A DNA stretch of 36,371 bases from positions 1-36,371 of the forward strand of contig JAMPXO010000043.1 of the NCBI GenBank assembly GCA_023701125.1. The letters are read 5' to 3'. The notes below the pieces were generated by a model that saw nothing but the letters and a program-made list of their open reading frames with translations, made no database searches and was not told the origin of the DNA. Shown here piece by piece: positions 24,534 through 29,761 of this stretch. This stretch comes from Vicinamibacteria bacterium. Its GTDB lineage: Bacteria; Acidobacteriota; Vicinamibacteria; Fen-336. Position 1 is the first letter of the stretch, and every line of letters begins with the position of its first letter. The translations under genes were made by a program, and so were the position numbers.

Positions 24534-25322
24534 CTAGCGCCGGTTGCGTTCGTAGATCAGGCGCAGGCCGGTCAGCGTCAGCCACGGGTCGACCACCTCG
24601 ATCGACGGGATGTCGCGGGCCAGCGTCTCGGCCAGCCCGCCCGTGGCGACGACCCGCACCCGCTCGCCCAGCTCGGCGCGAATCCGTCCCAAGAGCGCCT
24701 CCACCATCCCGCAGTAACCGAAGTAGAGGCCCGACTGCATCGAGCCCACGGTCGAGCGGCCGACCACGCGCCCGGGATTGCGGACCTCGACGCGCGGCAG
24801 CCGCGCCGCGCGCTGGAACAGCGCGTCCGCGCTGATGCCGACGCCAGGGCAGATCACGCCGCCGAGGTACTCCCCCTCGCGCGTGACCACGTCGAAGGTC
24901 GTGGCGGTGCCGAAGTCGACGACGATCACGGGACCGCCGAACAGCGCCAGCGCGGCCACGCCGTTGACGATGCGGTCGGCGCCGACGTCGCCCGGCGGCT
25001 CGTACAGCACCGGCATCCCGGTCTCGACCGCGGGGTCGACGACCAGCGGGTCGTGGCCCAGGTACTGGCGCGCGAGCGCGACCAGCACCGACGTCAGCGG
25101 CGGTACGACGCTGGCGAGGGCCACGCCCGCGATCTCGCGCGGGTCGATGCCCGAGTTCGCGAACAGGTTCCGCACCAGCACGCCGTACTCGTCGGCGGTC
25201 TGCTCGCGGCGGGTGGTGAGCCGCCAGTGGGCGCGCAGCTCCTCCCCCGCGTGGACGCCGAACACCGTGTTGGTGTTGCCGACGTCGATCGTCAGCAACA
25301 GCGGCTGCCGCCCCTCGGTCAT
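24534..25322 (-). CDS. coaX: Type III pantothenate kinase
   Basis: 262 residues catalysing the first step of coenzyme A synthesis, ATP-dependent phosphorylation of pantothenate. ASKHA-fold signatures: DVGNTNTVFG (13-22), GADRIVN, DFGTATTFDVV and the GVGISADALF segment. The start ATG 25320-25322 is preferred over an upstream extension overlapping birA. It is 5 bp downstream of birA, in the widespread nadC-birA-coaX order. Length is typical for CoaX. Confidence 0.95.
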   Translation of the reverse strand: MTEGRQPLLLTIDVGNTNTVFGVHAGEELRAHWRLTTRREQTADEYGVLVRNLFANSGIDPREIAGVALASVVPPLTSVLVALARQYLGHDPLVVDPAVETGMPVLYEPPGDVGADRIVNGVAALALFGGPVIVVDFGTATTFDVVTREGEYLGGVICPGVGISADALFQRAARLPRVEVRNPGRVVGRSTVGSMQSGLYFGYCGMVEALLGRIRAELGERVRVVATGGLAETLARDIPSIEVVDPWLTLTGLRLIYERNRR

Positions 25323-25327
25323 CTCGC

Positions 25328-26104
25328 TCACTCCCCGGGCCGCAGCGCCCGCGCATCGCCCGCGAGCACGGCCTCGACTCCGTCGGCGGTCTCGACCAGC
25401 AGCGCGCCGGTCGAGTCGAGGCCGCGGGCCACGCCGCGCAGCTCCCGGTCGCCCTGGCGCACCCGCACCGGCCGGCCCCACCAGTCCAGTGCGCGCGCCC
25501 GGAAGGCGCGCGTCACGTCGTCGGCCGGACCGGCGGCGGCGCGATCATACCAACCGCGGATCCGGGCCAGCAGCGCGGCCGCAGCGGTCGCAGCCGTCAC
25601 CGCGCGCGGCGCCGCCTCGGCCAGGCACGCGCCCGGCGGATCCGTGTCCGCCGGCGCGCTGACGACGTTGAGGCCGATGCCCAGCACCAGCGACTCGAGG
25701 CCGCGCGCCGAGGTGGAGGCTTCCAGCAGCAGCCCCGCCAGCTTGCGCTGGCGCCACCACACGTCGTTGGGCCACTTCAGGCGGGCGTCCACGCCCTGTT
25801 CCTCGAGCGCCTCCGCGAGGGCGACGCCGGCCGCGAGCGAGAGCAACGGCGCGCGCAACAGCGGCAGGGTCGTCGGCATCGCGATCGAGAGGTACAGGTT
25901 GCCGGGCGGGGACTGCCAGACGTTGCCGTGGCGACCGCGTCCGCCCCGCTGGAGCCCCGCCCGCAGGGCGGTCCACGGCGCGACGCCGGCGGCCTTCAGC
26001 GCGTCGTTCGTGGAGCCGATCTCCGCGGCGAACTGCAGCGGCGCGGGCCACGTCACGTCGCGCGCGGCGAGAGCCTCGGCGAGCTCGACATCGGGCGTGA
26101 TCAC
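25328..26104 (-). CDS. birA: Biotin--[acetyl-CoA-carboxylase] ligase
   Basis: 258-residue ligase that makes biotinyl-AMP and attaches biotin to the carboxyl-carrier protein. The GRGRHG loop (55-60), KWPNDV (110-115) and KLAGLLLE (121-128) motifs are intact, and STN near residue 31 is present. There is no N-terminal DNA-binding domain, so it is a monofunctional ligase without the BirA repressor role. The start is GTG 26102-26104, 10 bp after the nadC-like stop. Confidence 0.95.
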   Translation of the reverse strand: MITPDVELAEALAARDVTWPAPLQFAAEIGSTNDALKAAGVAPWTALRAGLQRGGRGRHGNVWQSPPGNLYLSIAMPTTLPLLRAPLLSLAAGVALAEALEEQGVDARLKWPNDVWWRQRKLAGLLLEASTSARGLESLVLGIGLNVVSAPADTDPPGACLAEAAPRAVTAATAAAALLARIRGWYDRAAAGPADDVTRAFRARALDWWGRPVRVRQGDRELRGVARGLDSTGALLVETADGVEAVLAGDARALRPGE

Positions 26105-26114
26105 GGGGGCGGGC

Positions 26115-26969
26115 TCAGGCGCCGGCGTCGAGCTCGAATGCCACCGCCGCGTGCGGAGCCGCGGCCGTCAGCGCGGCCACGCGCACCACGTCCACGCCGG
26201 CCTCGGCGAGCGCGCGGGCCTCCTCGGGATCGGCCGCGGCGGCCTCCACCGTGGCCCGCCCGGCGACCAGCGCCAGCGCGTCGCGGACCTGGACGACCGT
26301 CAAGGCCGGCAGCAGCAGCACCGCGGCGCCGGCCTCCAGCGCCTCCGGGATCTCCTCGAAGCGGCGCGGCGCCGCCATCACGTCGCGACCGCCCGCGCTG
26401 GCGACGGCGGCCTTGACGGCGACCGCCATGCCGCCCGCCGCCAGCACGTGGCCGCGCCCGACGCACAGGCCGGCGTCGAGCCCGTGGCGTGGCGCGACGC
26501 CACCACCCAGCTCGATCGCATGGCTCTCCAGGAAGCGCAGGCCCGGGGTGCTGACGCGGGTCCCGCGCACGCGGGCGCGGGTACCCGTCAAGGCCTCGAC
26601 GTAACGGCGGGTCAGGGTCGCGACGCCGGACAGGCGGCCGAGGAAGTTCAGCACGACGCGCTCGGCGGAGATCAGCGCCCGCGCCCGGCCCTCGACGCGG
26701 GCCAGCACGGTACCGGCCTCCGCGTCGAGGCCGTCCGCCAGCACGCCTTCCCAGCGGAACTCCGGGTCGAGGTGGCGGAACGCGAGAGCGGCCGCGTCGA
26801 GGCCGGCCACCACCAGCGGCTGGCGCGCGACCAGCGCCCCGGTCGCCATCACGTGCTCGGGCACGACCCGCGACGTGGTCAGGTCCCCGGCTCCGAGGTC
26901 CTCCTCGAGGGCGGCGACCACCGCGGCACGGATCCGCCGCGGGTCGAGCATCGGGGCGGTGTGGGTCAT
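26115..26969 (-). CDS. nadC: NadC-like protein with degenerate active site (quinolinate phosphoribosyltransferase family)
   Basis: 284 residues with the normal NadC length and fold markers: EEDLGAGDLT (22-31), ERVVLNFLGRLSGVAT (103-118) and TPGLRFLESHAIELGGG. The family makes nicotinate mononucleotide from quinolinate and PRPP. Many catalytic residues differ from the family pattern: DTRK is GTRV (136-139; Lys to Val139), NHR is APR (159-161; His to Pro160), LIKDNH is CVGRGH (169-174; Lys to Gly171), LDN is LPA (220-222; Asp to Pro221), EASGG is EAAAA, and GALTHS is AALTAA. The changes are spread in frame, so they are not a frameshift. It sits in the expected valS-nadC-birA-coaX order with a good Shine-Dalgarno. 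It may be inactive, regulatory, or have a changed substrate. Confidence 0.85.
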   Translation of the reverse strand: MTHTAPMLDPRRIRAAVVAALEEDLGAGDLTTSRVVPEHVMATGALVARQPLVVAGLDAAALAFRHLDPEFRWEGVLADGLDAEAGTVLARVEGRARALISAERVVLNFLGRLSGVATLTRRYVEALTGTRARVRGTRVSTPGLRFLESHAIELGGGVAPRHGLDAGLCVGRGHVLAAGGMAVAVKAAVASAGGRDVMAAPRRFEEIPEALEAGAAVLLLPALTVVQVRDALALVAGRATVEAAAADPEEARALAEAGVDVVRVAALTAAAPHAAVAFELDAGA

Positions 26970-26988
26970 GGCGTCCCCCTTCGGAGCC

Positions 26989-29655
26989 CTAGTTTGCTCC
27001 CGCTTCGCCTCCGGCTGGCGGTGGCAGCGGGGCCAGCTCGAGGGCGGTCACGGCCAGCTCGGCCCCGGCCTCGGTGACGAGCTCCACGCGCGGGGCGCGG
27101 GTTGCGGAAGCGAGGTCGGCGAGCCCGTGGTCGAGGGCGCGCGAGAGCTCGGGGTCCGCCCGCAGCACGAGCCGGGTCAGGTGGCGGCCGACGGAGGCCT
27201 GGGCCCCGGTTTTGGCACGATGCACGGCTTCCAGCGCGGCCGCCACGGCGTCGAACGCCGCAGCGTCGTCCAGCGTGGCGCCGATCGCCGCCCACTCGCC
27301 CGCCACGGGCCAGCTCGCGCGATGGACGCTGGGCGACGCGCCGGGGTCGGCCGCGAAGCGCCACGACCAGACCTCCTCCGCCACGTACGGCACGTACGGT
27401 GCGAGCAGGCGCACCAGCGCGTGCAGCCCGAGCCGCATCGACGCCACCGCGCTGGCGCGCCCGGCCGGGTCGCTTTCGTCGCGGGCGCGGTTCTTCACGA
27501 TCTCGATGTACGCGTCGGTGAAGCGGCTCCAGAAGAAGCGCTCGATGGCGTCGAGCGCCGTCGCGTAGTCCATCTCCTCGAGCGCGGCGGAAGCCCGCTC
27601 GACGGTCTCGCGCAGGCGGAACTGGAAGCCCTTGTCGACCGGGTGGGTGATCGCGCTGGCGTCGCCCGCCTCGCCGAGGCCGAGCACCAGCTTGCCGGCG
27701 TTGAACAGCTTGGTCACCAGCCGGCGGCCGACCTTCAGCACCTTTTCGTCGAAGGCCGTGTCGACCCCGAGCTTGGCGGACAGCGACCAGTAACGGACCG
27801 CGTCCGATCCGTAGCTGTCGAGCAGGTGCATCGGCGTCAGCACGTTGCCCTTGCTCTTCGACATCTTCTTGCGGTCGGGGTCGAGCACCCAGCCGGAGAT
27901 CGCGACGTTGCGCCACGGGATCTCGCGGTCGTGCAGCCAGGCCTTGGCGATCGTGTAGAACGCCCAGGTGCGGATGATCTCGTGGCTCTGCGGGCGCACG
28001 TCCATCGGGAACAGCTTCTTGTGACGCTCGGGCGCGTCGATCCACTGCGTGGCGAGCTGCGGCGTCATCGACGACGTGAACCAGGTATCGAACACGTCGT
28101 TCTCGGCCGTGAAGCCGCCGGGCTGGTCGCGCTGGCTCTCGCTGTAGCCCAGGGGCAGGTCCGTCGTCGGATCGACGGGCATCGCCTCCGGCGCCGCGAC
28201 GATCGCGCGCTCGTACTCGGGCCGGCCCGCCGCGTCGAGCGGGTACCAGACCGGGAACGGCACGCCGAAGTAGCGCTGGCGGCTGATGCACCAGTCGAGG
28301 TTCAGGTTCTCGGTCCAGTTCCTGAACCGCAGCCGCATGAAGTCGGGGTGCCAGGTGATGCGGTCGCCGGCCTCGATCAGCTCCTGCTTGTGGTCGAGCA
28401 CGCGCACGAACCACTGGCGGGTGGTGATGAACTCGAGTGGGCGGTCGCCCTTCTCGAAGAACTTCACGGGGTGCTCGATCACCTTCGGCTCGGCCTGCAG
28501 CGGCGCCTCGTGGACCGCGGTCGCCGAGCCGGCGGGGTCGCGCAGCGACTCGACGATCCGCTTCTGCGCCTCCTTCACCGACTGCCCCACCAGTCGCTCG
28601 TAGTAGGCGTTGGCCTCGTCGGCCTTCTCCGAGGGCCAGCCCTCGCTGCCGAAGACGACCTTCTCGAGCCGGCCGCCGCGGTCGACGATCTGGCGCAGCG
28701 GCAGCTTCTCGTCGCGCCACCAGATCACGTCGGTGGCATCGCCGAACGTGCAGACCATCAGGATGCCGGTGCCCTTCTCGGGGTCGACCAGCGGGCTCGG
28801 GAAGATGCGCACCGGGACCCGGAACAGCGGCGTGACCGCCTCGCGTCCGAACAGCGACTTGTAGCGCTCGTCCTCCGGGTGGGCGGCGACGCCGACGCAG
28901 GCCGGCAGCAGCTCCGGCCGCGTGGTCGAGATGACGAAGCTCTCCTCCGAGCCCTTCACGCCGAAGCGCAGGTCGTGGTACGCGCCGCGCATCGGCCGGT
29001 CCTCGACCTCGGCCTGGGCCACCGCGGTGCGGAAGTCGACGTCCCACATCGTGGGCGCCTCGTGGCTGTAGGCCTCGCCCTTCTTCACCAGGTCGAGGAA
29101 CGAGAGCTGGGCGATGCGCCGCGAGTGCTTCGAGATCGTCGAGTACTCGAGCGCCCAGTCGACCGACAGCGCGAGCCGCTGCCACAGCGCCTTGAACGCC
29201 TTCTCGTCCTCGTGGGTCAGTTGCAGGCACAGCTCGATGAAGTCGGCGCGCGAGACCTTCGTCGGCGGCTGCTTGCGGGTCGCGTCGTCCGCCATCTCGA
29301 ACCTGCGACCGGGCTGCGACGGCACGCCCGCCTCGCAGCGGACGTGGAAGTAGTTCTGGACCCGGCGCTCGGTCGGCAGGCCGTTGTCATCCCAGCCCAT
29401 CGGGTAGAACACGTTGCGGCCCTGCATCCGGCGGTGGCGGGCCAGCACGTCGGTCTGCGTGTAGCTGAACACGTGGCCGACGTGCAGCGAGCCCGAGACC
29501 GTGGGCGGCGGCGTGTCGACGACGTAGCGCGGCCCGGTCCCCTGTTCGTCGTAGCGGTAGGTCCCGTCCTGCGCCCACTGCTGGTCCCACTTCTGCTCGG
29601 CGGCGGCCGAGTCGAAGTGCGGTGGGAGCGTGGCGACGTCGACCGGAGTGGGCAT
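26989..29655 (-). CDS. valS: Valine--tRNA ligase
   Basis: 888-residue class I synthetase charging tRNA-Val. It has the HIGH-like HVGH in PPPTVSGSLHVGHVFSY, an editing (CP1) domain, the WFTSSMTP segment, and KMSKS in KKMSKSKGN. PPPTVSGSLHVGH and the continuation GWDDNGLPTERRVQN match the actinobacterial/rickettsial/archaeal-like ValRS class rather than the E. coli type (PPPNVTGSLHMGH), and a C-terminal coiled-coil arm is not evident. The start ATG 29653-29655 has GAGAGG upstream; the in-frame ATG at 29697 is less likely. First gene of the valS-nadC-birA-coaX block. Confidence 0.95.
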   Translation of the reverse strand: MPTPVDVATLPPHFDSAAAEQKWDQQWAQDGTYRYDEQGTGPRYVVDTPPPTVSGSLHVGHVFSYTQTDVLARHRRMQGRNVFYPMGWDDNGLPTERRVQNYFHVRCEAGVPSQPGRRFEMADDATRKQPPTKVSRADFIELCLQLTHEDEKAFKALWQRLALSVDWALEYSTISKHSRRIAQLSFLDLVKKGEAYSHEAPTMWDVDFRTAVAQAEVEDRPMRGAYHDLRFGVKGSEESFVISTTRPELLPACVGVAAHPEDERYKSLFGREAVTPLFRVPVRIFPSPLVDPEKGTGILMVCTFGDATDVIWWRDEKLPLRQIVDRGGRLEKVVFGSEGWPSEKADEANAYYERLVGQSVKEAQKRIVESLRDPAGSATAVHEAPLQAEPKVIEHPVKFFEKGDRPLEFITTRQWFVRVLDHKQELIEAGDRITWHPDFMRLRFRNWTENLNLDWCISRQRYFGVPFPVWYPLDAAGRPEYERAIVAAPEAMPVDPTTDLPLGYSESQRDQPGGFTAENDVFDTWFTSSMTPQLATQWIDAPERHKKLFPMDVRPQSHEIIRTWAFYTIAKAWLHDREIPWRNVAISGWVLDPDRKKMSKSKGNVLTPMHLLDSYGSDAVRYWSLSAKLGVDTAFDEKVLKVGRRLVTKLFNAGKLVLGLGEAGDASAITHPVDKGFQFRLRETVERASAALEEMDYATALDAIERFFWSRFTDAYIEIVKNRARDESDPAGRASAVASMRLGLHALVRLLAPYVPYVAEEVWSWRFAADPGASPSVHRASWPVAGEWAAIGATLDDAAAFDAVAAALEAVHRAKTGAQASVGRHLTRLVLRADPELSRALDHGLADLASATRAPRVELVTEAGAELAVTALELAPLPPPAGGEAGAN

Positions 29656-29761
29656 GAATCCTCTCGGGGCCGCGGCATCCCCGACAGGCTCGCGCACGTC
29701 TCGTCGTCGGCGCGCCCCGGAGATGCGGGCGTCTGGTTCGGAGCGGGTTTGACGGGAAAGG

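Follow-up and report, generated by a model that had tools for sequence, protein, structure and literature searches.

The window, meaning the whole 36,371-nucleotide stretch analysed here, is a contig (C189) of a 5.4-Mb, 95%-complete Vicinamibacteria (Acidobacteriota) MAG (G000). One of its operons encodes a NadC homologue that, taking the evidence as a whole, is best explained as a retained pseudoenzyme, a reading we regard as probable. NadC is a textbook NAD enzyme. A search of the open-access literature found no earlier report of a NadC pseudoenzyme and no description of a copy that is dead yet under selection. Catalysis appears to have been lost in at least three lineages while selection kept the gene, which makes a second, previously undescribed function of the protein probable.

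Identity and active site of the operonic copy

The gene lies on the minus strand with closely spaced neighbours, valS being close on its 5' side. The features of this region are:

26989..29697, minus strand: valS, in the same operon and upstream of the nadC-like gene, in an order conserved in the class
26976..26981, minus strand: AGGGGG, a Shine-Dalgarno-like sequence 5' of the nadC-like ATG, read by eye
26115..26969, minus strand: nadC-like gene (284 aa), with a QRPTase fold, the PRPP-, ribose- and phosphate-site residues lost and the quinolinate-clamp Arg/His residues kept
25328..26104, minus strand: birA (biotin-protein ligase), the downstream gene, 10 nt past the nadC stop
24534..25322, minus strand: coaX (type III pantothenate kinase), after birA, with its start at the ATG of MTEGRQP

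The reading frame runs from an ATG at 26969 to 26115, including a TGA, with no frameshift or internal stop. Operon order in relatives and the tree show that the gene fills the nadC place of the valS-nadC-birA-coaX operon and is orthologous to the NadC encoded there, and the original prediction that operon position, length and Shine-Dalgarno sequence are normal agrees with these features. The fold core, also predicted to be normal, is recognised by both Pfam domains, QRPTase_N and QRPTase_C (63.7 and 79.5 bits, well over cut-off). An AlphaFold2 model has a pLDDT of 95.7 and a pTM of 0.92, which indicates that the sequence fits the fold and not that the pocket is intact, since the input alignment was mostly canonical NadC. 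The closest solved structure is Thermus thermophilus NadC (1x1o; Z 34.3 on the DALI scale, rmsd 1.4 Å over 275 residues), and together with the Pfam domains this match places the protein in the type II PRT fold. The near matches in the structure searches are NadC proteins, nicotinate and nicotinamide phosphoribosyltransferases rank below them, and no pointer to another function emerged.

The protein resembles NadC (TIGR00078, EC 2.4.2.19; for example 1x1o and M. tuberculosis 1qpr) in fold, length, operon position and orthology, and shares R105, R139, R162 and H175 with it. It differs in being without the PRPP, ribose and phosphate residues as well as K172 and H161, and it falls below the NCBIfam equivalog cut-off (180.3 bits versus 198.4), as does the dead copy of its genus-mate G001 (160.8 bits). 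ModD, the NadC paralogue of molybdenum transport operons, belongs to the same superfamily, but the window protein is set apart from it by score (60.4 bits against a TIGR01334 cut-off of 178.85), by its neighbours valS, birA and coaX, and by a tree position among NadC proteins from its own family of bacteria.

In NadC, quinolinate is bound by R105', R139, R162, K172 and H175, of which R105' comes from the other subunit, so that the dimer shares its active sites; in the M. tuberculosis enzyme, changing any one of the five to alanine abolishes activity (PMC4065032). K172 binds the C2 carboxylate, which distinguishes quinolinate from nicotinate, while R139 and R162 bind the C3 carboxylate common to both (PMC4065032). 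Ribose is held by E201 and D222, and phosphate by the backbone of 249/250/270 and the side chains of K139/N223/Q274 in pig numbering (PMC3633916). Alignment of the window protein with 55 canonical NadC proteins gave the replacements K139V, H160P, K171G, D172R, N173G, E200A, D221P, N222A, S244A, G245A, G265A and H269A. In M. tuberculosis numbering, assigned in the C-terminal part by motif alignment, the lost residues are K140, H161, K172, (D173, N174), E201, D222, N223, S248, G249, G270 and H274. All the ribose- and phosphate-binding positions (PMC3633916) are replaced, the set K140, E201, D222, N223, G249 and G270 reading V, A, P, A, A and A. Of the five quinolinate-site residues only K172 has changed, to G; R104, R138, R161 and H174 correspond to R105, R139, R162 and H175, and the motifs of the N-terminal (dimer) domain are likewise kept. 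The six motif replacements originally described (GTRV, APR, CVGRGH, LPA, EAAAA and AALTAA) are all present. The wider statement that most catalytic residues are gone is right for K140, H161, K172, E201, D222, N223, S248, G249, G270 and H274 and overstated for the quinolinate site, where four residues remain. As the ribose- and phosphate-binding positions are replaced and four clamp residues stay, this residue map leaves the site without its phosphoribosyl half and with most of its carboxylate clamp. From the residues we infer that the protein lacks quinolinate phosphoribosyltransferase activity, and its predicted non-catalytic status is well supported.

The same sites are kept at 95–100% in 131 canonical homologues of the class, so that the losses exceed chance. 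They recur in the copies of G001 and G002, different MAGs representing two other species of the window's genus (g1), which are about 75% identical and have partly different replacements (GTRF, RVHGWH, LPE, EATAG and PALT). Sequencing or assembly error, which would have undermined the original prediction, is ruled out because three MAGs of three species carry the same losses.

Maintenance of the gene and supply of NAD

Pairwise Nei-Gojobori estimates of dN/dS for the nadC-like gene are 0.24 between G000 and its genus-mates, at a dS of about 0.7, and 0.116 between G001 and G002; birA and coaX in the same genomes give 0.38 and 0.11. Substitutions fall at third codon positions 2.6 to 2.9 times as often as at the first two, and this together with the dN/dS values indicates purifying selection within the genus. 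Other pairs of degenerate copies have dN/dS from 0.16 (G039/G053 and G172/G175) up to 0.45 (G108/G110). In the tree, the three genus copies form the sister clade of the NadC that relatives in their family carry in this operon (support 100/95), and their common stem is long, at 1.02 changes per site, with ordinary divergence after it, so that the history reads as a burst of change followed by constraint. The claim that the gene is maintained and not decaying has therefore held up: given the intact reading frame, the dN/dS of about 0.24 and the confidently predicted NadC-like fold, selective maintenance in place of pseudogene decay is well supported at the sequence level. The protein combines the marks of a pseudoenzyme, namely loss of catalytic residues with an intact predicted fold and purifying selection after the loss.

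The losses had raised the question of where the organism obtains its NAD, and the answer is partial. The 95%-complete G000 contains no NadA match, no second nadC and no true nadB. The only other nadC match, on contig C254 (E 0.03, one internal stop), overlaps ORFs that are not NadC-like, and the nadB match is a succinate dehydrogenase flavoprotein. The 85%-complete G001 likewise has no NadA match, no NadC beyond the dead copy and no true NadB; for both genomes, the absence of nadABC is that seen in an incomplete MAG. 3-Hydroxyanthranilate dioxygenase, of the kynurenine route, gave no match, and none in the control genomes either. Among the salvage genes sought, nicotinate phosphoribosyltransferase (NAPRT, PncB; 542 bits) and NadD are both present in G000, so that its NAD probably comes from nicotinate (niacin) salvage, as far as a genome at this completeness indicates. 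NAPRT matches were also found in G001 and G002. Directly after the NAPRT gene of G000 (C206, L125) lies a gene for a 341-aa protein with, by eye, some likeness to nicotinamidase-like hydrolases and with no Pfam or NCBIfam match.

G002 carries, on contig C25, an nrtR-nadA-nadB-nadC operon with a canonical NadC. NadC proteins of nadABC operons next to nrtR (G002 C25 and G013) come from the same bacterial family and have a canonical active site; unlike the window copy they form a separate clade, lie in another operon and keep the catalytic residues. The nadABC-type NadC is a candidate replacement for the dead copy. The operon is part of a block (G002:C25:4192-12524) comprising mgtE, a PBP-like gene, an aldo-keto reductase gene and nrtR-nadA-nadB-nadC. 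The block is absent from the same site in G001 and G000, where the chromosome continues without it, and the gene order of C25 departs from theirs exactly where the block begins, in an intergenic region. About 950 bp at that junction (L140:2963-3917, G000:C165) occur only in G000. A foreign chimera was considered and rejected, the tetranucleotide make-up of the block resembling the window's genus and not G013; the order break at the block start leaves some small likelihood that strains related to each other were joined in a chimera.

These findings also bear on the idea that the window protein has stayed a working quinolinate phosphoribosyltransferase despite its unusual residues. In fold and place in the operon it matches NadC, and it is the product of the only nadC-like gene found in G000, but it no longer has K172 or the residues for ribose and phosphate, no NadA to supply quinolinate was found in G000, and G002 carries a canonical NadC besides the dead copy. 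Continued activity is accordingly very improbable.

Recurrence across the class

A class-wide search gave NadC matches in 157 of 193 genomes, and 146 homologues (147 less one partial) were examined in detail. Fifteen are degenerate, the three of the window's genus and 12 beyond it, the latter defined by three or more active-site substitutions, and all 15 stand in the order valS-nadC-birA. A canonical NadC in a nadABC operon occurs in G002, G172, G173, G174, G026, G039, G053, G108, G109 and G110. It is a second copy, with nadA and usually nadB, in G110, G172, G173, G174, G026, G108, G109 and G039; nadB was unmatched beside it in G173, and in G053 the canonical nadC sits between nadB and nadA. 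Two f7 genomes with a degenerate operonic copy, G024 (100% complete) and G105 (90%), have no NadA match. Among the degenerate copies, that of G024 is the least altered, and its inactivity is the least secure.

When 27 active-site columns are left out of the alignment, the tree sorts the degenerate copies into four clades (genus g1, f8, f12 and f7), corresponding to four changes. In AU tests, whose p-values are weakened because the groups were set up with the first tree already in view, a single origin of all degenerate copies was rejected (p 1.6e-9), as was one clade of f7, f8 and f12 (p 0.004); a shared origin of f8 and f12 was not (p 0.25). On these trees, loss of NadC chemistry would have arisen at least three times in the class.

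The 15 copies agree in what they retain: R139, R162 and H175 in all 15 and R105 in 13, compared with N223 and the Asp of KDNH in none, H274 in one, D222 in three and K172 in five. Judged from these counts, the pattern of loss is not that of random decay. T137, P142, R145, N108 and further residues are kept as well as the clamp, so that clamp retention alone is no proof of ligand binding. Two copies (L274 and L275, of G172 and G175) still have DTRKT and HR but carry Gly in place of R105, a pattern of loss unlike the window's.

The universal retention of R139, R162 and H175, and a burst of change followed by constraint that resembles a change of function, would also suit an enzyme whose pocket uses a different carboxylate and no PRPP. 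The lost residues have not, however, been succeeded by another set of conserved polar ones, and what stands at the old active-site positions varies between G000 and G001/G002 and from lineage to lineage; with the PRPP pocket lost as well, such a substrate change seems unlikely.

Genus g7, which belongs to the same family and has a nadABC operon, has deleted the operonic nadC, so that birA comes straight after valS, and several f15 genomes have only the nadABC-type copy. The retained role is hence dispensable in some lineages and not universal. The g7 deletion, the apparent absence of nadA and nadB from G000 and an operon position in which stops would be penalised would all fit a jobless relic, decaying slowly with its frame held open only by the downstream birA and coaX. 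Polar effects on downstream genes would not by themselves conserve the amino acids, whereas dN/dS here is low at considerable dS, the fold is predicted with high confidence and the copy has been retained through several genera of f8 and f12, all of which makes a relic improbable. The f2 order-mates G014-G016 and the f3 genomes listed have no NadC match, and the five of them tested gave no NadA either, so that the class may often have lost the de novo route to NAD.

Possible roles of the retained protein

By its sequence, the protein is the operonic NadC of the family, passed down vertically. On the branch to the genus, the PRPP, ribose and phosphate residues together with K172 and H161 were lost while the fold, the N-terminal motifs and the clamp were kept, and the protein has evolved under purifying selection since. 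Other Vicinamibacteria went through the same change on their own, mostly in genomes whose nadABC operon supplies a canonical NadC or in which de novo synthesis seems to have disappeared. NadC duty may first have become redundant, through nadABC or through niacin salvage by PncB; catalysis would then have been lost, with a second, non-catalytic role keeping the protein. The most likely such role would be binding of a pyridine carboxylate (nicotinate, quinolinate or a look-alike) by the R139/R162 pair without turnover, the protein acting as sensor or buffer, or binding a partner, in connection with birA and coaX, the cofactor genes with which it is presumably transcribed. Taken alone, a ligand-binding or regulatory role is plausible, though we would put it at somewhat below an even chance; the kept arginines could be structural, which counts against a binder. 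The broader proposal is more tentative still: a recurrent class of NadC pseudoenzymes, in which a redundant operonic copy loses catalysis and stays as a binder of nicotinate, quinolinate or another such carboxylate, through which the operon's biotin and CoA genes would be tied to NAD precursor status, is possible and rather doubtful. The original suggestion of a pseudoenzyme or an altered or regulatory paralogue is the reading that survives.

HisZ activates HisG, the catalytic subunit of ATP phosphoribosyltransferase. Bacterial pseudoenzyme subunits of this type are, like the window protein, catalytically dead paralogues kept by selection; the window protein differs in that some genomes with such a copy seem to be without any active paralogue. 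A comparable arrangement would be a mixed dimer in which the dead protein, as an inactive regulatory subunit, lends R105 to the active site of a canonical nadABC NadC. Each NadC active site takes in R105' of the partner subunit (PMC4065032), R105 is seldom lost from the dead copies, the N-terminal domain is well kept, and a canonical partner is present in G002 and in most f8 and f12 genomes. Against this, no such partner was found in G000 (95% complete), G001 (85%), G024 (100%) or G105 (90%), and R105 is lost in G172 and G175 even though G172 has a partner. A mixed dimer is thus an unlikely explanation, and a retained NadC pseudoenzyme is preferred.

Repeated independent loss of the chemistry with the protein kept suggests a second NadC role, perhaps hidden in active NadC too. 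The finding also touches annotation. Four of the five dead copies tested from f7, f8 and f12 exceed the NadC equivalog cut-off, so that genome-based models would assign them an activity that they probably lack.
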